The notes under the pieces: generated by a model
Told to the model about the DNA's origin: nothing
The model's input: the letters and a program-made list of their open reading frames with translations, nothing else
Database searches by the model: none
Assembly: GCF_000186365.1 (NCBI RefSeq)
Contig: NC_014961.1
Location: forward strand, 62,001-126,000
Direction of reading: 5' to 3'
Source: Desulfurococcus mucosus DSM 2162
GTDB lineage: Archaea > Thermoproteota > Thermoprotei_A > Sulfolobales > Desulfurococcaceae
DNA length: 64,000 bases
Translations under genes and position numbers: made by a program
Shown: positions 13,252-60,530 of the stretch, in pieces
How the letters are laid out: every line of letters starts with the position of its first letter
Numbering within the stretch: the first letter of the stretch is position 1

Positions 13252-13388
13252 CTGAGCCCCCGTCTTAAAGGGGGTTTTCCTTCAGGGAGTTCACTGGTTC
13301 CCCATATCTCTTCGGGTTTACATACGTCATCTGCGGGGGTGGGCAGAGATTCTTCATTTCCGCGAGGGACGGGGCTTTCAGTTGTGAC
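13252..13388 (-). mobile_element. Short IS200/IS605-derived mini-element (left and right ends, no transposase)
   Basis: Read on the minus strand, TCAC then AACTGAAAGCCCCG (left end, from 13387 down) is followed about 40 nt later by GCAGATGACGTATGTAAACC, a GGGGAACCAGTGAACTCCC hairpin, and a CCCCCTTTAAGACGGGGG palindrome ending near 13252. The order and motifs match the element at 45824-46092, with the interior reduced to almost nothing. There is no coding capacity. The right terminus stops 3 nt beyond the proS stop codon. Confidence 0.65.
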
Positions 13389-45823: not shown

Positions 45824-46092
45824 CTGACCTCCTCTCCGCCCTAAAGGGCGAGGATTCCCCTAGGGGGTTCACTGGTTCCCCGCATTTGTTCGGGGCTACA
45901 TCTGTCATCTGCGGGGCAGTCGGGGTGGTCAGAGATCCCCCCATCTGGTTATCTCTGCTCGGGAACAACCCCTCGTGAACGAGGGGTTGCAGCCCCCTCA
46001 CCGCTAAATACCTTTCCTCATCACCACTACCCATACATAAAAAACAAACTTATAAACCTTCAACCCCGCCTTGAAAGACGAGGCTTTCGGTT
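45824..46092 (-). mobile_element. IS200/IS605-derived mini-element with both ends
   Basis: On the minus strand: TTAC target (46096-46093), left end AACCGAAAGCCTCG and a TCTTTCAAGGCGGGG palindrome, a TATA-like GTTTATAAG, then a short frame (starting near 46034) whose end EPVNPLGESSPF recalls TnpB C-termini. The right end follows: ACAGATGT, GGGGAACCAGTGAACCCCC hairpin, and CGCCCTTTAGGGCGGAGAGG ending in AGGTCAG at 45824. No transposase domain is left. It is a non-autonomous deletion derivative. Confidence 0.7.
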
Positions 46093-46173
46093 GTAAAGCT
46101 ATAAGTAAAGTAAAGTAATATTGATTATTGATTTATTTTAGTGATCGCGGCTTCGACTGGTTTATCCGCAGTG

Positions 46174-52455: not shown

Positions 52456-52557
52456 CCGGGTGAATGGGTTTACAGATGTAAACCTGGGGGGATGCGGGGG
52501 ACCAGTGAACCCCCTAAACGGGGAAACCTCACTCCTTTAGGGCGGGGAGGAGGTCGG
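52456..52557 (+). repeat. Solo IS605-type right end (orphan omega-RNA-like module)
   Basis: Three consecutive hairpins: GTTTAC-AGAT-GTAAAC (52468-52483), GGGGG-ACCAGTGAA-CCCCC, and a CTCCTTTAGGGCGGGG segment ending GAGGAGGTCGG. Arm 1 covaries with the copy at 60436-60530 (GTTCAC/GTGAAC), supporting RNA-level selection. No left end or transposase nearby. The final GGAGGAGGTC lies directly before the ATG at 52558. Confidence 0.65.
52547..52556 (+). promoter_or_regulatory. Shine-Dalgarno of the HDAC-like gene, supplied by the repeat
   Basis: GGAGGAGGTC, the conserved terminus of the right-end repeat, lies 1-2 nt before ATG 52558. The strong complement to the 16S 3' end suggests it acts as ribosome binding site, although spacing is shorter than usual for some of its bases. 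Confidence 0.5.
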
Positions 52558-53592
52558 ATGGTTAGGGTGATAGTATCAGCTAGGTCAGCATACATGCATA
52601 GGCCGGTGGGGTATCACCCGGAGAACCCGGGGCGGATTCCAAGAATAGTTGAAAGCCTCCGGAGAAGCAGTATTGATTACGAGTGGCTGGAGTCAAGTGT
52701 GCTGAATACGCGTGAGGCACTTGAGATCGCCACGAGGATACATAGTAGGAGCTATGTTGGGAAGATACTGGAGATGGCTGGTAGAGCACCATTGAATATA
52801 GATGAAGACACCTATATCTCCAAGGATAGCGTGGAGCTAGCATTGGAAACACTTGGTGAGTCATATAGACTTGCCCTGCAACAAGGCAACGGGGTGGTCT
52901 TCTACATAGCGAGGCCGCCGGGCCACCATGCAGGGGTGAGGGGGAGGGCTACAGGTGCACGCACCCAGGGATTCTGCATATTCAACAATGCCGTAGCAGC
53001 CGTGAAGGGATTCATGGATAGAGGGTTGGGGAAAGTAGCTGTATTAGACTTCGACGCGCACTACGGGAACGGCTCCATGGAGATACTCTACGGTGCAAGA
53101 GTACTCCAAGTGGACCTTCATCAGGATACCCGTACAATACCTGTGTTCCCCTTGCTACCCGGTTCAGTTGGATCCGGGGAGGGCTACGGCTTCAAAGTAG
53201 GGATTCCACTGGAGCCCGGTACCGGCGATGACTCCTACGTGGAGGTCTTGGAGGCAGTGTGGAGGGTCATTGAGAGATATAATCCAGAGGCCTTCGTGGT
53301 GTCAGCAGGGTTCGACGGCTTCAGGGGCGATGGGTTAACGGATCTAGTTCTCACCGAGTACACCTTTCATAGGCTGGGAGAGATGATCAGGGGCCTCGGG
53401 GTTCCAACAGTGGTGGTTTTAGAAGGCGGGTATTCAAGCGGCCTAGACAAAGGTGTGGCAGCATTCATCAAAGGGTTGAAGGGTGTTGCCGCAGGATATA
53501 AGCCTGCTAGGACGGTTCACCGTGTTGTCCGCCGGGTTAACTTGGAGAGAGCCATTAGCATAATTAGCTGGGTTGAGAAACATGTGTATTGA
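52558..53592 (+). CDS. Histone-deacetylase-family protein (AcuC-like)
   Basis: 344 residues. The zinc-hydrolase core is intact: RPPGHHAGVRG (the His-His pair), FCIFNNAVAAVK, VLDFDAHYGNGSME (Asp and His ligands), VSAGFDGFRGD and LEGGYSSG. Such enzymes remove acetyl groups from lysine (for example of chromatin proteins or acetyl-CoA synthetase) or from polyamines. ATG 52558 is the first start downstream of the repeat; the frame is open to 52492, but through repeat sequence. The 3' end overlaps the CYTH gene frame by a few bases. Confidence 0.9.
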   Translation: MVRVIVSARSAYMHRPVGYHPENPGRIPRIVESLRRSSIDYEWLESSVLNTREALEIATRIHSRSYVGKILEMAGRAPLNIDEDTYISKDSVELALETLGESYRLALQQGNGVVFYIARPPGHHAGVRGRATGARTQGFCIFNNAVAAVKGFMDRGLGKVAVLDFDAHYGNGSMEILYGARVLQVDLHQDTRTIPVFPLLPGSVGSGEGYGFKVGIPLEPGTGDDSYVEVLEAVWRVIERYNPEAFVVSAGFDGFRGDGLTDLVLTEYTFHRLGEMIRGLGVPTVVVLEGGYSSGLDKGVAAFIKGLKGVAAGYKPARTVHRVVRRVNLERAISIISWVEKHVY

Positions 53593-53606
53593 GGAGGCTG
53601 CGGGCC

Positions 53607-54197
53607 GTGTCACATGGGTTGCAGGTGGAAACAGAGGTCAAGTTAAGGATAACCGGGGATCCAGGCATCGTTGAGGAAAACTTGTTGAGCCACGGCTTCA
53701 TAAAGGTTGACGAATGCGTTGAAAGAGACATATACTTCAAGCATCCATGCAGGGATCTATCGCTGAGCGATGAAGCCGTGAGGTTACGCTACAGGTCGTG
53801 CAGGAACAGCGGTGAACACTTGGTCTTAACCTATAAGGGGCCGAGGATCAGCAGGGAAGGAGTGCTCAAAGCGAGAATGGAGGTGGAGGCAAGGCTTCAG
53901 CCCGGTGAGATACACAGCATGGTCAAGCTCCTGGAATACATTGGCTTCCCCAAGCTAGCATCCTTCACAAAGAAGCGGTTCATCTTCCATAAGGATGGCT
54001 TGGAGGCAACTATAGACGAGCTCATGGGTGTCGGCTTCTTCCTCGAGGTAGAGTTAAAGAAGCCTGATGCCGTGAAAGCCCTGCAAGACTTACTAAGGGG
54101 ACTCTCCAATGTAACAGTGATGGTTAAGGAAACATACCTCGAGATATGCTTAGAGACAGGGAGGTGTATTGATGAGCAGGGTTCTTTCCCTACTTGA
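53607..54197 (+). CDS. CYTH-domain protein (class IV adenylate cyclase-like)
   Basis: About 196 residues. N-terminal EVKLRI is the CYTH strand with its conserved Glu, followed by ERDIYFKHPC, AVRLRYRSC, VLTYKGPRIS and KARMEVEARL, the acid and base rich tunnel strands. Archaeal CyaB-like members bind triphosphate compounds. GTG 53607 follows GAGGAGG (53590-53596); TTG 53589 and 53619 are alternatives. It is tightly linked to the HDAC-like gene. Confidence 0.82.
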   Translation: MSHGLQVETEVKLRITGDPGIVEENLLSHGFIKVDECVERDIYFKHPCRDLSLSDEAVRLRYRSCRNSGEHLVLTYKGPRISREGVLKARMEVEARLQPGEIHSMVKLLEYIGFPKLASFTKKRFIFHKDGLEATIDELMGVGFFLEVELKKPDAVKALQDLLRGLSNVTVMVKETYLEICLETGRCIDEQGSFPT

Positions 54198-54356
54198 CTA
54201 CCTCTAGGCTATGGCTCAACGCATGTGTGCCGTGAGGGATTTAAGTGAGTGAAGCAATACTTGTATCGCGGGATTTCATCTACGATGGCCTCCCCGGGCA
54301 AGCGGTTGCCTCAGGGGTGGCTGTGGATGCGTAAAGTAGACCCCTGGGTGGGCTGA

Positions 54357-55004
54357 ATGTATAGGGCGTCATCACTGGTTACAGAGGCCCTCTACAGGCG
54401 TGTCATAGGGGAGCACATGGCTAGGATGGGTGAGTTGAGGGACGGTAGCACAATATATGTAACGGATCTAGTTGCATGCAGCCACAAGTACCACATGAGG
54501 AGAAAGTACCCGGAGCTGACAATAGGCTTCGAGCCCTCCATGGTTCTAGGGGAGCTCCTCCATAAAGGGTTAGAGGAGGTGTTGAAGGGCGAGGGCTACG
54601 AGGTTGAGAAAAGCGTTGAAGTACCAGTGGAGATAGATGGAGCCAGGTACATTGTTAAAGGAAGGGTTGACGCCTATAATCCCGGTACTAGAACCGTGGT
54701 TGAAATAAAGAGCTCCAGGACCTCTAGAGGCATTCCTAAGCCACACCATGTTGAACAGTTGAATATATACCTGAACATCATGGATGTCGAATCAGGGATC
54801 CTGGTGTATGTTACAAGCGATAAGATAGTGGAATACGTTATTCCACGGGAAAGAGTCGACGTAACTGGCCTAGTCAGGAACACGTTGGGCAACCTAGTCC
54901 ACCCGCGATACGAGTGGGAATGCGAGTACTGCGTGTTCAGGAGGCTGTGTCCATATGCTAGAGAGGAAGGGGAGAAGCTCTACACGGATACTGGTAGGAA
55001 GTGA
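54357..55004 (+). CDS. Cas4-family Fe-S exonuclease (solitary)
   Basis: 215 residues. N-terminal Cys (DLVACSHKYHMRRKYPE) and a C-terminal trio (CEYCVFRRLC) form a 4Fe-4S ligand set typical of Cas4. The PD-(D/E)xK core is GRVDAYNPGTRTVVEIKSS, with QLNIYL following (QxxxY motif). It would cut single-stranded DNA. No CRISPR array, Cas1 or Cas2 is present in the window, so it is probably a free-standing repair nuclease or a CRISPR gene detached from its array. Start: ATG 54357 (TG at 54360 region preceded by GGTGGGC). Confidence 0.8.
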   Translation: MYRASSLVTEALYRRVIGEHMARMGELRDGSTIYVTDLVACSHKYHMRRKYPELTIGFEPSMVLGELLHKGLEEVLKGEGYEVEKSVEVPVEIDGARYIVKGRVDAYNPGTRTVVEIKSSRTSRGIPKPHHVEQLNIYLNIMDVESGILVYVTSDKIVEYVIPRERVDVTGLVRNTLGNLVHPRYEWECEYCVFRRLCPYAREEGEKLYTDTGRK

Positions 55005-55077
55005 TGAACTCGGGTGAGCGGAGCCTAGGCGATGAAGACGGTCTTGAGTACTGAACATGCCCCACGGACACAACCCA

Positions 55078-56337
55078 TTAGTTGAGAAGGGTTCTCAGAC
55101 TCCTGAAGACCAGGTAGAGATATATGAATGCTGCCACGCTGAGAACGCTTGAAGCCAGCAGGCTTCCCACGGCGCCAAGCCACACGTAGAGTAATCCACC
55201 GATGTAGCTTGCAAGAGCCCAACCCATGTTTTCAATGAATCTCTGGATGCCTGCAGCTCTTCCACGGAGCTCTACTGGGAGTATCCTTGTAAGCATTGCG
55301 GAAATCACCGGTCCCATGAGGGCTCCACCTATAGCCCCACTCACACTGCCGGCTACCAGAGCAGTCATCGGGCTCACCCCCATCAGCGTAGGGGAGGCGA
55401 AGAACAGGTATGATGCAGCTGAGAGAACACTTGTTGTAACCATTACTGCAACATAGTTTTCACTGATCACGGATGCCAGTATCAGCGATGCAATGATCGA
55501 GGAGGCCGTGCCCACCGTGCTTACAATACCCCACTCGGTGTTCGAGACACCTAGTATCCTGACAGAGTATATGGAGCCATAGGTGTTCCATACTGATGAT
55601 GCAAGCGGCGCTATAAAGCCTGTGAACAAGTAGATGAGGATGACGTGCTTCATCATTTTAAACCTGAATAACTCGGTGAGATCCTTCACCAGGTTGAAGC
55701 CTCCCCTGTTAGCCACGGTGAGGGTCTCCTTCAGGGCCCGTGCCCTTAGAAGAAGCACCATCAAGCTCAGTACACCGGAGACCAGGAACCCGTACCTGAT
55801 GCCTTGCACACCATAGATATCGTATAGTCTCCCCCCGATTACAGGCATGAATAGCCATGGTATACTTGGAAACACGTTTAACGCTATGAAACCCTTGAGC
55901 TCCTTCCTCGATGGAATGGAATCCATGATTATTGCCGTCAGCGCGGGCTGGTAGAAGTGTGCGGCTTCATCTATCACCCATACGACGGCGAGCTGGCTCC
56001 AGGACCCCACTAGTGCATAGGCGAACTGCGTCAGTGAAACTAGTAGTGTTCCAGCAAGAATCATCTTAACTCTCCCTACACGATCCGTTAGAAGCCCCCC
56101 TACGACTGTGAAAACCCCTAGGACAACCATGCCAATGGATTTTACCACGGCGATCTCCAGGTCTCCTGCCCCAAGGCTCTTAGCGTAGAGTGAGAAGAAG
56201 GGCTGTACAAGGGCACCGCTTAAACCATAGAGGAACCATGATATAGCCATGACTAGCACGTTCCCGCTTAATACATTCCTCAACTCCCTGAAGCCGTTTG
56301 CGACGCTCTCCATAAGCACCCCCATGTAGCTCATCAT
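55078..56337 (-). CDS. Major facilitator superfamily transporter
   Basis: 419 residues with about twelve membrane helices. The MFS loop 2-3 signature GGLLTDRVGRVKMIL (DRxGR) is present and the C-terminal half repeats the fold (RGRAAGIQRFIENMG). The substrate (drug or small organic) is unknown. Start ATG 56337; TATA-like GTTTTTAAC at about 56351-56359. The gene lies opposite to the sugar ABC importer, with a 114-nt gap to its start codon. Confidence 0.87.
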   Translation of the reverse strand: MMSYMGVLMESVANGFRELRNVLSGNVLVMAISWFLYGLSGALVQPFFSLYAKSLGAGDLEIAVVKSIGMVVLGVFTVVGGLLTDRVGRVKMILAGTLLVSLTQFAYALVGSWSQLAVVWVIDEAAHFYQPALTAIIMDSIPSRKELKGFIALNVFPSIPWLFMPVIGGRLYDIYGVQGIRYGFLVSGVLSLMVLLLRARALKETLTVANRGGFNLVKDLTELFRFKMMKHVILIYLFTGFIAPLASSVWNTYGSIYSVRILGVSNTEWGIVSTVGTASSIIASLILASVISENYVAVMVTTSVLSAASYLFFASPTLMGVSPMTALVAGSVSGAIGGALMGPVISAMLTRILPVELRGRAAGIQRFIENMGWALASYIGGLLYVWLGAVGSLLASSVLSVAAFIYLYLVFRSLRTLLN

Positions 56338-56407
56338 CTATTCATGTGGCGTTAAAAACACGTGTGATTAGTGCTGTGGTTGCCTGCTTGTTGGAAGATC
56401 AGGGACA

Positions 56408-56441
56408 GTTTTATAAGTGGGGCCACTGTAAATTTTATAAC
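56408..56441 (+). promoter_or_regulatory. Two tandem TATA-like boxes before the sugar ABC operon
   Basis: GTTTTATAAG (56408-56417) and AATTTTATAA (56431-56440) lie 23 nt apart. The first is at the usual distance for the start at 56452; the second would be too close unless the first translated codon is further downstream. Confidence 0.45.
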
Positions 56442-56451
56442 GGGTGTGTGT

Positions 56452-57972
56452 ATGAGCCAGGCCCTCACGAAGACGCAAGCCCTGATACTCGTCTTCCTCA
56501 TCATTGTAGCTGTCGCCGGAGTCTTCATCGCGATGCAGTGGCTCTCATCCTCGCAGTCCTCGACGACAACAACACCGCCTCTTACAACGACAACCACTAC
56601 TGGTACAACAACTACCACCGCGACAACAACGACTACCACGCCCGCTGGAAACACGATAGTCATAGGCAGCACCGTCATCCATGTATCAAGCGAGTTCAAG
56701 CAGTTCGTTGAAGACGCGAAGGCTGGGCGGGTCAGTGTCAAGATATACTTCGGCCATGCTTTAACGGAGAACGAGCGTAAGGCGTTCCAGGACATAATAA
56801 GCATGTTTAAGAACGAGTACCCAGGCATAGAGGTGGTTGAGGTAGCGTACTCGGGAATGGACGTGTTAAAGAGCCAGATTAGTGCGATAGCCACGTTGTC
56901 TCCTGAGCAGAGAAGCAACTACATAGGCAAGGTTCCCGACCTCTTCACATGGGCGCACGACTGGATAGGGAGTTTCGCTGATAAAGGCTACATACTTCCA
57001 CTGGAAGAGGTTCTCAGCTCCGACACCATCATAAATGACATTGCGCCAAACCTGCTGCCCATAGCTCTCTCCGCTGTAACATACAACCTGAAAACATATG
57101 GGTTACCCTACGCTGGTGAAACTATTGCACTGATAGTCAATAAGAATCTTGTACCAAACCCGCCGGCATCCTTTGACGAGATGCTTCAGGTAATGAAGTC
57201 CTTCACGAACAGGAACACGGGTAGCTATGGTCTCTCATATCAGGCTGACCCATACCACTTATATCCATTCGTCACGGCTTTCGGAGGCTACTACTATGAT
57301 GAAGCCACTAAGAGCATAGGTGTGAACTCGACTGGCACTAAGCAGGGAATAAAATTCTATATACAGAACGTCCTACCATATGTGGATGTATCGGACTTAG
57401 GGCTAACCTACCAGACAAACCTCTTCCTGAACGGGAAGACACCAATGATGATTACTGGGCCCTGGAACATTGCAACAATAAACAAGTCACTTGGACTCAG
57501 CAACATAGCGATCGCGCCTCTACCAAACATAGGTGACAAGGTGCCTAAGCCGTTCAGCGGATATAGGGGGATTTATATTACCCTGATGGCTAATGTGGGC
57601 GGCAGGGAGCGCCTCTATGCTTCGGTCCTCTTCACACTATATGTTGCATTGAATGATAATGCGTTGAAGATATTGGTGGACAAGAACAACTATGTGCCGG
57701 TGAAGAACACGATGATAACATATATCCAGGAGAATAAGGACAAGTATCCAATAGTCTACGGCTTCCTCACGCAGCTCATGAGGAGTGTACCCATGCCAAA
57801 GGATCCGATGATGGATAAAGTGTGGAATGTCGGAACATACATTAACGCTATACTGGGGAAGTACAGTGAGGCATTACAGTCCGGTAAAACAGTCGATCAG
57901 GCTGTGGCAGAGACACTCAGCGTTGTCGACCAGCAGTTGGATGAGGCCTACGCTAGTATTGTTGGCAAGTAG
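56452..57972 (+). CDS. Sugar-type ABC transporter substrate-binding protein
   Basis: 506 residues. An N-terminal membrane helix (ALILVFLIIVAVAGVFIAM) is followed by a Thr-rich linker (about residues 37-65) and a MalE-like solute-binding domain (VKIYFGHALTENERKAF, PMMITGPWNIATIN, GYRGIYITL). The binding protein is tethered by the helix rather than lipidated, common in archaea. With two permeases downstream it imports an oligosaccharide, perhaps products of the GH57 enzyme at 35858-39256. ATG 56452 chosen; GTG 56446 possible. Confidence 0.9.
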   Translation: MSQALTKTQALILVFLIIVAVAGVFIAMQWLSSSQSSTTTTPPLTTTTTTGTTTTTATTTTTTPAGNTIVIGSTVIHVSSEFKQFVEDAKAGRVSVKIYFGHALTENERKAFQDIISMFKNEYPGIEVVEVAYSGMDVLKSQISAIATLSPEQRSNYIGKVPDLFTWAHDWIGSFADKGYILPLEEVLSSDTIINDIAPNLLPIALSAVTYNLKTYGLPYAGETIALIVNKNLVPNPPASFDEMLQVMKSFTNRNTGSYGLSYQADPYHLYPFVTAFGGYYYDEATKSIGVNSTGTKQGIKFYIQNVLPYVDVSDLGLTYQTNLFLNGKTPMMITGPWNIATINKSLGLSNIAIAPLPNIGDKVPKPFSGYRGIYITLMANVGGRERLYASVLFTLYVALNDNALKILVDKNNYVPVKNTMITYIQENKDKYPIVYGFLTQLMRSVPMPKDPMMDKVWNVGTYINAILGKYSEALQSGKTVDQAVAETLSVVDQQLDEAYASIVGK

Positions 57973-58065
57973 TAGAGGTGTGTCCATGTAATGATAGAAG
58001 CTTTTTTACCAGGTCACCTGGGACAGGTATCCTGGCCACAGTGCTCTCGGTGAAAGGTGCTTCTC

Positions 58066-59511
58066 ATGTCCAGTAGGCGACACCTTTACCCGGCTAGAAT
58101 AGGGTTCTTGATGGCTATCGCAAGCATAGTCCTCTACTTCTTCTTCAACATATGGCCCCTTGCATTCTCAATCGGCATGGCCTTCACCAATGCTAGGGAA
58201 GACAATTTATTCGTGGCACCGGAGGTCATGAGGAACTATGATAACGCCATAGCGTGCGCCAGCTTCATGAAGACCAATGTGACTCTAAGTCTAGCGGTCT
58301 CCAGGGTCTTCGCCGATATAGCGGATACTATGGATAGACTATCCAGTAGTACTAGTGCATTGATGAGCCTAGTGAACAAGTCCCAGAACCCCTCGGAGGA
58401 TCCGATGGTACTACTTGGAATACAATCGCTTTACGCTGAGTCACTGAGGCTTAGAACCATACCGGGCACAGTTAACTCGGTGTTGAATTGCAGTAGCTAC
58501 GGGTTCGCCACCTCGAAGAGCTTGATTGAACCCAGGATCCTGGACGACCTCAACAACATCTACAATGTGGTCTCAGAGATCTCCTCGTACTATGCCTCGA
58601 TGTCCAGGGACAGCTTGTTGAGCAGGCTCTCACAGATCCTTGAACTGAGTAAAGGCGCCTCCACATACTTCAGGAACATGTCGAGCGATTTCCAAGGCTA
58701 CCTGGACAACTATATTGAAAGCGTTAGGGGTGAGAAGGAGTCAAAGATGCTTCGATTCATCGGGCTCGACAATTTTGCCAGACTATTCACCGACCCAAGG
58801 TTCTACTACTCACTATATAAGACAACGGTATTCGTTGCAACCAGCGTGCCCCTCAAGCTACTCCTTGGAATAGGGTTGGCTTTCTTCTACTCAACACCAC
58901 TCATATATGGGAGAAGGGTGCTAAGGGGACTCGCACTGGCTCCATGGGCTCTACCACTATTGCTTTCAGGGTTGACTTGGCGCTTCTTGTTCTCCCCCAG
59001 CGGGCAACTGGGTAGGCTGTTTGGAATACAGTTGTTCACCGATGAATGGCAGGCCTTCCTAGTATACAACCTGTTCGAGGCATGGTTAGCCTACCCCTTC
59101 ATAATGACTGTTACCATGGGGGCTCTCTCAGGGGTTTCCAGGGAAGTCATTGAAGCCTCCTACATAGATGGGGCATCCCTGTGGCAGCGCCTCAGACACG
59201 TTGTCCTCCCACTAGTCTCCAAACCCCTCATGTTGGCCGCGATACTTACAACCGGTGCATCGCTCCAGGCTTTCATGGTGCCATTGCTCCTGAACGGGGG
59301 TGGACCCACCAGGGTGATAACAGTACCGTACTTCGGGAGCAAGACGGGTAATGTCAACGAGATGATAATTCTATTCGGATACAACAGGGCTATAACTGAT
59401 AAGGAGTGGGGTTATGCAGCAGCCACGTATCTAATCGTAGTATTGATAATAATGGTCTATGTAGCGGTCTGGATGTATGTCTCGAGACGAGGTGGGAAGA
59501 GTGGCCTCTAA
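58066..59511 (+). CDS. Sugar ABC transporter permease (MalF-like)
   Basis: 481 residues. The first helix (IGFLMAIASIVLYFFFNIWPLAF) is followed by about 190 residues of charged helical sequence presumed external, then five further helices. The inner coupling motif EASYIDGASLWQRLRHVVLP (EAA loop) contacts the ATPase. The long external insertion is reminiscent of MalF P2 but is probably coiled and helical. ATG 58066 has GAAAGGTG upstream; GTG 58057 is an alternative. Confidence 0.88.
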   Translation: MSSRRHLYPARIGFLMAIASIVLYFFFNIWPLAFSIGMAFTNAREDNLFVAPEVMRNYDNAIACASFMKTNVTLSLAVSRVFADIADTMDRLSSSTSALMSLVNKSQNPSEDPMVLLGIQSLYAESLRLRTIPGTVNSVLNCSSYGFATSKSLIEPRILDDLNNIYNVVSEISSYYASMSRDSLLSRLSQILELSKGASTYFRNMSSDFQGYLDNYIESVRGEKESKMLRFIGLDNFARLFTDPRFYYSLYKTTVFVATSVPLKLLLGIGLAFFYSTPLIYGRRVLRGLALAPWALPLLLSGLTWRFLFSPSGQLGRLFGIQLFTDEWQAFLVYNLFEAWLAYPFIMTVTMGALSGVSREVIEASYIDGASLWQRLRHVVLPLVSKPLMLAAILTTGASLQAFMVPLLLNGGGPTRVITVPYFGSKTGNVNEMIILFGYNRAITDKEWGYAAATYLIVVLIIMVYVAVWMYVSRRGGKSGL

Positions 59512-60352
59512 GGTAATGTGGCTTGTATTCAGGGTCTCCCTGACCGTGGCAGGCTTCCTAGTGTTATTCGCATTGCTCTACCCAGTGTTCTTCATAGTTC
59601 TACAGTCTTTCTACTCTAAGCCAAGCCTTATCGAGGACCCGGTCAAGGCCCTGGGTATGCTGACGATTGAGAACTATGTTAGAGCTGTGGCTAGCCCTGA
59701 GTTCGCGAGCGCCATCCAGATGAGCCTGCTGATAAGTTTACTCACAGTATTGGTCTCAGTGGTCGTGATAACTCCGGCGGCATACGCGTTCTCGAGGTTC
59801 CATTTCAAGGGCAGGGACATGGTGCTCTACATATATCTCATACTGAGCCAGGCGGGAGGAGGCTTCGGCGTCGTCGCCGTAATAGCCCTGCTAATGTTCC
59901 TCCTGGTGTTAAGCTCCTATGGTGTGCCAGCGTATGGTTGGCATGTCCTCCCCTTGATCTACAGTGCCGGGCTCGTCCCATTCCAGACATGGCTGCTTAA
60001 ATCATACTTCGACAACCTTCCCAGAGAGCTGGATGAAGCGGCATTCATTGATGGTGCTGACTGGGGCACCATAATATATAGGATAGTGCTGCCTTCATCC
60101 AGGCCAGCGGTAATAATCATCACCCTGTTCGCATTCATGAGTGCGTGGGGAGAGTTCTTCATAGCGAACCTCCTACGCGTCAACACTATAGGTGCATACA
60201 TATACATGACGGCTTTCGGCGAGCGCGGTCTCCAGGATCCATCAGTGTATGCTGCCCTCTCCCTGATCTACGCTTTCCCGATAATAGTGATATACATGGT
60301 TGCACAGAGATACATGGGAGAAGCCTACAGGCTCGGCATAGTTAAAGGCTAG
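59477..60352 (+). CDS. Sugar ABC transporter permease (MalG-like)
   Basis: 291 residues, six helices, EAA motif DEAAFIDGADWGTIIYRIVLPSSRP in the last third. It overlaps the MalF-like gene by 35 bp. No ABC ATPase gene follows; the ATPase must be supplied from elsewhere, as with multitask ATPases of other sugar importers. Ends 84 nt before the solo right-end repeat. Confidence 0.88.
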   Translation: MSRDEVGRVASKVMWLVFRVSLTVAGFLVLFALLYPVFFIVLQSFYSKPSLIEDPVKALGMLTIENYVRAVASPEFASAIQMSLLISLLTVLVSVVVITPAAYAFSRFHFKGRDMVLYIYLILSQAGGGFGVVAVIALLMFLLVLSSYGVPAYGWHVLPLIYSAGLVPFQTWLLKSYFDNLPRELDEAAFIDGADWGTIIYRIVLPSSRPAVIIITLFAFMSAWGEFFIANLLRVNTIGAYIYMTAFGERGLQDPSVYAALSLIYAFPIIVIYMVAQRYMGEAYRLGIVKG

Positions 60353-60435
60353 CCTGTGGGCTGAAGACGGTTTTTCAAAAGGTGAAACAAGTCCTCCACT
60401 GTATTCACGTATACGGGTGTATCATTGATCACGCG

Positions 60436-60530
60436 ATGCCGGTTCACAGATGTGAACCCGGAACAGATGCGGGGAACCAGTGAACCCCCTAAACGGGAGC
60501 CCCCGCCCTTTAGGGCGGGAAGGAGGTCAG
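60436..60530 (+). repeat. Solo IS605-type right end (orphan omega-RNA-like module)
   Basis: The best-preserved copy: GTTCAC-AGAT-GTGAAC (60442-60457), GGGGAACCAGTGAACCCCC, then CCGCCCTTTAGGGCGGG and AAGGAGGTCAG at 60530. Its terminus lies 2 nt from the end of the converging TFB gene. No left end or transposase is visible upstream to 60353. Confidence 0.65.

Follow-up and report, generated by a model that had tools for sequence, protein, structure and literature searches.

IS608 of Helicobacter pylori uses a TTAC target, carries subterminal hairpins and has an AAAG-type guide beside its left hairpin. In ISDra2, the omega-RNA is built of stem 1, whose loop region forms a pseudoknot with positions -5 to -3, a 7-bp stem 3a and, at -20 to -17, a loop of the sequence UUUA; the ISDra2 TnpB makes contact with stems 1, 3a and 4 and with the pseudoknot (PMC10097598). 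A third described system is the palindrome-associated transposable elements (PATEs) of Haloquadratum walsbyi, which derive from IS605-type transposons and are reported to arise by repeat-mediated deletion of the core, down to 52-bp terminal-only versions (PMC3119063).

The present study concerns four loci in a 64,000-nucleotide stretch of the Desulfurococcus mucosus genome (the window). A sequence-only reading of the window had described them as IS605-type right ends sharing a conserved, covarying RNA-like fold, and had suggested that they may be orphan guide-like RNAs without a linked tnpB. Our analysis makes it highly likely that the four loci are copies of one IS200/IS605-type family at different stages of decay, the copies at 52 and 60 kb being remnants and the copy at 45 kb being intact (Table 1).

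The repeat family, its tnpB genes and its insertion sites

The genome of D. mucosus comprises one contig of 1,314,639 bp. The sequences described were present at their positions in the window, and the four loci (52 kb, 60 kb, 45.8 kb, and 13.3 kb) proved to be copies of one repeat, far beyond chance, with genome-wide matches reaching E values down to 1e-26. With the 60 kb copy as the query, approximately 40 right-end copies were found in the genome, and family matches were obtained in 54 of 117 genomes of the archaeal order. An Rfam scan of the window gave no match at the repeat loci.

A profile search of the genome with PF07282 identified six full TnpB-type frames and three remnants. In four of the six (near 25.5, 211, 389, and 444 kb), the family right end and the 3' end of a tnpB gene overlap, the TnpB domain being intact, and the genome-wide search for tnpB genes with the same right end, a check proposed in the sequence-only reading, thus recovered four. 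The word orphan is therefore correct locally, as no tnpB is attached to any of the four window copies, but not for the genome as a whole. The fifth full frame (669 kb), which belongs to another TnpB lineage, has its terminal ~55 nt in common with the family, and the sixth (1,099 kb) lies in a different element. There (1097587-1100784 of the genome), a separate TnpB-type frame follows a serine-recombinase-like frame without the right end studied here, and the element is apparently of the IS607 type. It was also observed that in the tnpB copies at 389, 444, 211, and 25 kb no stop codon occurs within the right end and the frame continues into the genomic flank; every TnpB copy would get its own C-terminal tail. 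In the copy at 211 kb, the tnpB is full, the left-end hairpin is deleted, and TTAC lies directly at the junction.

No Y1 TnpA was found in the D. mucosus genome, and the Y1 transposase was found in only three of the 41 genomes searched. In one of the other genomes (G028), tnpA is directly followed by a tnpB-like frame, with the family left and right ends; in another (G035), the family left end, the only end seen there, stands upstream of tnpA. Autonomous members combining Y1 TnpA with family ends hence occur outside D. mucosus. Since the same ends are found on these tnpA elements and the target is TTAC, the family is of the IS200/IS605 type with an IS608-like target, and its resident copies are now without TnpA.

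Behind TTAC, in most cases TTTAC, a full element opens with the sequence AACYGAAAGCC... or CACGAAAGAAAGCC... together with a hairpin, and it terminates in ...CGCCCTTTAGGGCGGGGAGGAGGTCAG; the family inserts 3' of TTAC and has the terminus ...GGAGGTCAG. The 45 kb element and its relatives have subterminal hairpins at both ends and no terminal inverted repeats, and the left hairpin is lost in the 52 and 60 kb copies. The element ends were shown inside the genome, because the flanks of a 269-bp element at 1,163,176-1,163,444, joined at GGGTTTAC|ACTCC, restore the family sequence. This in-genome empty site (TTTAC|ACTCC) and the TTAC-like motif before left ends show that the family inserts 3' of a short, specific target, which is not duplicated. 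The same 269-bp element sits within another family copy in the opposite orientation (1163107-1163444).

The orthologous spacer of the 52 kb copy contains no insert in four relatives (G001, G002, G007, and G010), and the 52 kb insertion is lineage-specific. The AFOR/riboflavin-kinase spacer, in which the 45 kb element resides, is likewise free of such an insert in two congeners, G001 and G002. For the 60 kb copy, the flanking genes are not neighbours in relatives, so that no empty site is readable. No convincing copies at common positions were found in D. mucosus and G001; in the sole spacer common to both (259952 and L116), the elements are in opposite orientation.

Table 1. Features of the family copies in the window and short repeats at the breakpoints of other left-deleted copies (genome coordinates in the last four lines)
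Feature	Position	Strand	Evidence
Non-autonomous element of MITE/PATE type, complete at 269 bp with both ends, tnpB-less	45824-46092	-	
Left end AACCGAAAGCC... with hairpin, after TTTAC at 46093-46097	46064-46092	-	same end in G028 and G035
TTTATAAG, archaeal TATA-box-like sequence, putative promoter	46049-46056	-	sequence
P0 hairpin (stem-1-like); loop CTGA 45929-45932 pairs with 3' TCAG 45824-45827	45922-45942	-	pair counts
P1, CCCCGCA 45910-45916 / TGCGGGG 45878-45884	45878-45916	-	pair counts
Terminal hairpin CGCCC-TTTA-GGGCG (stem-4-like), then GAGAGGAGGTCAG	45837-45850	-	pair counts, sequence
Degenerate element: left end after GTCAC (13384-13388), P1 mismatched, right terminus eroded	13252-13383	-	
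TTTAC, left insertion-site motif (TAM/target) at remnant 5' boundary	52469-52473	+	sequence; TTAC stands before the left ends of full elements and was the target in the empty site inside the genome
5' arm of hairpin 1, GTTTAC	52468-52473	+	sequence
84-nt 5'-deleted right-end remnant, abuts ATG (52558) of histone-deacetylase-family gene	52474-52557	+	
TTCAC, left insertion-site motif	60443-60447	+	sequence
5' arm of hairpin 1, GTTCAC	60442-60447	+	sequence
83-nt 5'-deleted right-end remnant	60448-60530	+	
Short repeat at breakpoint, ACCAC	640666, 782174		
Short repeat at breakpoint, CGAA	1179476		
Short repeat at breakpoint, CCGT	210814		
Short repeat at breakpoint, ACC	305108, 1107806		

Hairpins, the covarying fold and the intact elements

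Covariation had been attributed to hairpin 1. The perfect 6-bp stems GTTTAC/AGAT/GTAAAC (52468-52483) and GTTCAC/AGAT/GTGAAC (60442-60457) are present, as are the GGGG..ACCAGTGAA..CCCC block of hairpin 2 and the palindrome followed by AGGAGGTC. Hairpin 1, however, is not conserved in the family: all six pairs were complete in two of 31 resident copies, and the other copies carry GATGAC or a similar 5' arm, which does not pair with GTAAAC. The minus-strand copies, said to show the same order, are without hairpin 1 and both have GATGAC as the 5' arm (GATGAC AGAT GTAGCC at 45.8 kb and GATGAC GTAT GTAAAC at 13.3 kb). In a 49-sequence alignment with relatives, 55.2% of the hairpin 1 cells were paired, compared with 54.6% in shuffled alignments, and the diagnostic pair (columns 81/90) was standard in two of the 49 rows. 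Hairpin 1 is an insertion-site motif next to an internal remnant, not a conserved stem, and its arms match because TTTAC/TTCAC now adjoins AGATGTAAAC/AGATGTGAAC (GTAAAC/GTGAAC). Nor did hairpin 2 covary: no pair changed on both sides in the alignment pair counts, and the sub-type GAACCGCCCTAAAGG..CCTTTTAGGGCGG no longer has this hairpin, its bases having become part of the terminal stem. Two copies with matched arms are thus insufficient to infer a conserved RNA stem, and the full-family test both reversed the result for hairpin 1 and revealed a stem that does covary.

Folding of single sequences gave a weak signal (z = -1.4 and -2.1), and for the 60 kb copy the prediction differed from the fold claimed. 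RNAalifold applied to the 31 own-genome copies returned just one 3-bp and one 5-bp stem, probably owing to a MAFFT alignment that mixed truncated and full copies. Counts of named stems on the wider sequence set were informative where RNAalifold was not; automatic stem finding copy by copy accepted too much to serve as the sole criterion.

The covarying fold of the family comprises a 5' hairpin P0 (GGGG-ATCTCTGACCA-CCCC), a pseudoknot in which CTGA of the P0 loop pairs with the terminal TCAG at the 3' end, the 7-bp P1, and a terminal hairpin with a UUUA loop. In a plain MAFFT alignment, 88.9% of the cells in the 20 pairs of P0, the pseudoknot, P1, and the terminal stem were paired, with two-sided changes in 11 of these pairs. 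Two-sided cells numbered 35, compared with 12.5 in shuffled alignments and at most 11 in slid controls, an excess to be read with care, since the structure was picked after inspecting the same sequences and shuffles ignore relatedness. The best-covarying helix was P1, with 94.3% of cells paired and two-sided changes in four of seven pairs (CCCCGCA/TGCGGGG, CCCTCCA/TGGAGGG, CCCACCA/TGGTGGG, CCCTCGG/CCGAGGG, and CCCCCCA/TGGGGGG). The scaffold of stem 1, 3'-end pseudoknot, 7-bp stem, and terminal hairpin is conserved and covarying in the family. It can serve as a consensus omega-RNA fold for this TTAC-targeting group of TnpB elements, which is found across the archaeal order (54 of 117 genomes). 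A separate candidate, ACTG/CAGT as the equivalent of "stem 2", was rejected (72% of cells paired, no two-sided change).

Because the layout agrees with that of ISDra2 and the pairs covary, intact copies very probably encode omega-RNAs; an intact right end would supply P0, the pseudoknot, P1, and the UUUA hairpin, and the downstream genomic sequence would serve as the guide. The 45 kb element matches this fold. It is ~92% identical to five more full-length copies and 91% identical to a sixth, partly covered one, and the seven tnpB-less elements, ~92% identical, carry both ends and the whole fold. The guide-RNA idea thus suits the 45824-46092 element better than the 52 and 60 kb copies. D. mucosus does have tnpB-less copies in which the omega-RNA-like fold is intact, but the sequence-only reading had named the wrong, 5'-deleted copies and the wrong stem.

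Elements of the 45 kb type may be transcribed, as suggested by the TATA-box-like sequence, and the RNA of 45824-46092 could then be used in trans by TnpB from the four resident tnpB genes that have a matching right end. A further step would be to regard the seven-copy ~269-bp family as an independent omega-RNA gene, driven from a promoter of its own (TTTATAAG, close to the left end) and reprogramming resident TnpB in trans in an organism now devoid of TnpA. We offer this tentatively, as a rather doubtful possibility; if true, guide RNAs would persist although the transposase that produced them is gone. In bacteria, tnpB-less omega-RNA elements working in trans have been the subject of work, and nothing on such use was found in the open-access literature searched. 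The 45 kb-type elements with an intact scaffold form a modestly interesting set near ordinary remnants, and tnpB-less elements with a whole guide-RNA scaffold in hyperthermophiles merit RNA-seq attention.

Micro-elements of ~41 nt were also observed, in which the left end runs directly into the right-end hairpin (TTTACAACYGAAAGCCCCGCCCTTTAGGGCGGGGAGGAGGTCAG). They are located in D. mucosus at 1142562 on the minus strand and at 930770 and 259952 on the plus strand (L059, L060, and L054), and in G001 at loci L114, L115, L118, L119, and L121; they occupy different sites in the two species and resemble the 52-bp terminal-only PATEs of Haloquadratum.

The 5'-deleted copies at 52 and 60 kb

The description of these two copies as right ends was correct regarding the IS605/TnpB family, but they are not quite right ends only, as the left motif (TTTAC, TTCAC) stands at the 5' boundary. 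This motif runs straight into AGATGTRAAC, an internal position, and the internal breakpoint is identical in both copies. They lack the left end, P0, the 5' partner of the pseudoknot, and the 5' arm of P1; the omega-RNA scaffold is thus incomplete, and copies reduced in this way would be poor guide-RNA candidates. Everything between the left insertion-site motif and the internal ..ACA|GATG site appears to have been lost, probably via a short-repeat (ACA) deletion, which would have brought TTTAC/TTCAC next to its present partner sequence, with pairing by happenstance. The two copies are most likely ordinary, non-functional remnants of an IS605/TnpB-type element, although their conserved 3' block is nearly unchanged, which counts against the remnant view.

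Left-deleted resident copies start at TTAC or TCAC. The other left-deleted copies have differing internal breakpoints with 3-5 nt in common with the left end (Table 1), a pattern that would be expected from short-repeat-mediated deletion, which is also how the PATEs of Haloquadratum are proposed to have formed (PMC3119063). The nearest relative of the 52 kb copy is at 640666 (90%), and that of the 60 kb copy is a tnpB-linked copy at 444111 (91%). Because these closest relatives differ, the two deletions were probably independent, although the tree behind this view was built on short sequences and is weak.

The ..ACA|GATG breakpoint is seen in four copies of the D. mucosus genome and in one of G001, and the short right-end units could accordingly be mobile and not repeatedly eroded. 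TnpA would then have excised and inserted them with the internal ..GAC|AGATG as a substitute left end, and the TTAC-GTAA (TCAC-GTGA) pairing would represent a DNA target-recognition code like the guide sequences of IS608. Such a mobile sub-family would explain why five copies in two species begin at the same base after TTAC/TCAC and why TTAC goes with GTAA, and TCAC with GTGA, in the four resident copies. We nevertheless consider it unlikely, as the G001 copy has TTAC with GTGA, four copies are too few for a significant match, the copies do not cluster together, and the junctions are explained by short repeats.

The right-end AGGAGGT (window 52548-52560) immediately precedes the ATG of the histone-deacetylase-family gene and may have taken the place of the gene's ribosome-binding site. 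If the right end were co-opted as a translation signal, with AGGAGGT as a Shine-Dalgarno sequence, this would be compatible, as a side effect, with the decay of an IS200/IS605-type family. The AGGAGGTCGGATG at 52548-52560 agrees with such a role, as does the lack of the element upstream of the orthologous gene in relatives; however, a plausible start codon within 45 nt follows just a minority of copies, and the terminus is set by the family in every context, which leaves co-option quite improbable. An automatic start-codon survey downstream of right ends gave no general pattern.

It is hardly credible that resident TnpB uses the 52 and 60 kb copies in trans as working orphan guide RNAs whose 5' hairpin has formed anew. 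In favour of this reading, hairpin 1 is perfect in both, the 3' block is conserved, unique downstream sequence offers a potential guide, and tnpB genes with the same right end are present in the genome. Against it, the family does not conserve hairpin 1, the insertion at 52 kb is specific to its lineage, and the missing P0, pseudoknot partner, and P1 5' arm are the parts that covariation supports and that TnpB contacts in ISDra2 (PMC10097598).

Comparison with known systems

The likeness between IS608 and the D. mucosus family is one of described features, and no TnpA is left in the D. mucosus genome. The tnpB-less D. mucosus elements are of a known kind, namely non-autonomous IS605 derivatives (PATEs). 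Both they and the PATEs of Haloquadratum (PMC3119063) are transposase-free, with near-terminal palindromes and no terminal inverted repeats, whereas the latter occur in another archaeal phylum and have other sequences. In many D. mucosus copies the omega-RNA-like fold is still intact, something that the available text of that 2011 report does not mention for PATEs.

Compared with the omega-RNAs of TnpB systems, the D. mucosus family has the target TTAC and the right end TCAG, whereas ISDra2 has TTGAT and Sulfolobus islandicus has TTTAA with the right-end motif TTCAC; the stem sequences also differ, and the UUUA loop is at -22 to -19 in place of -20 to -17 in ISDra2. The organization is nevertheless alike, since in ISDra2 (PMC10097598) and S. 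islandicus TnpB7 (PMC11043419), as is predicted for the D. mucosus family, the RNA overlaps the tnpB 3' end and the right end, and the guide is the downstream flank. The predicted D. mucosus omega-RNA further shares with the ISDra2-type omega-RNA a stem 1 with a pseudoknot to the 3' end, a 7-bp stem, and a UUUA terminal hairpin.
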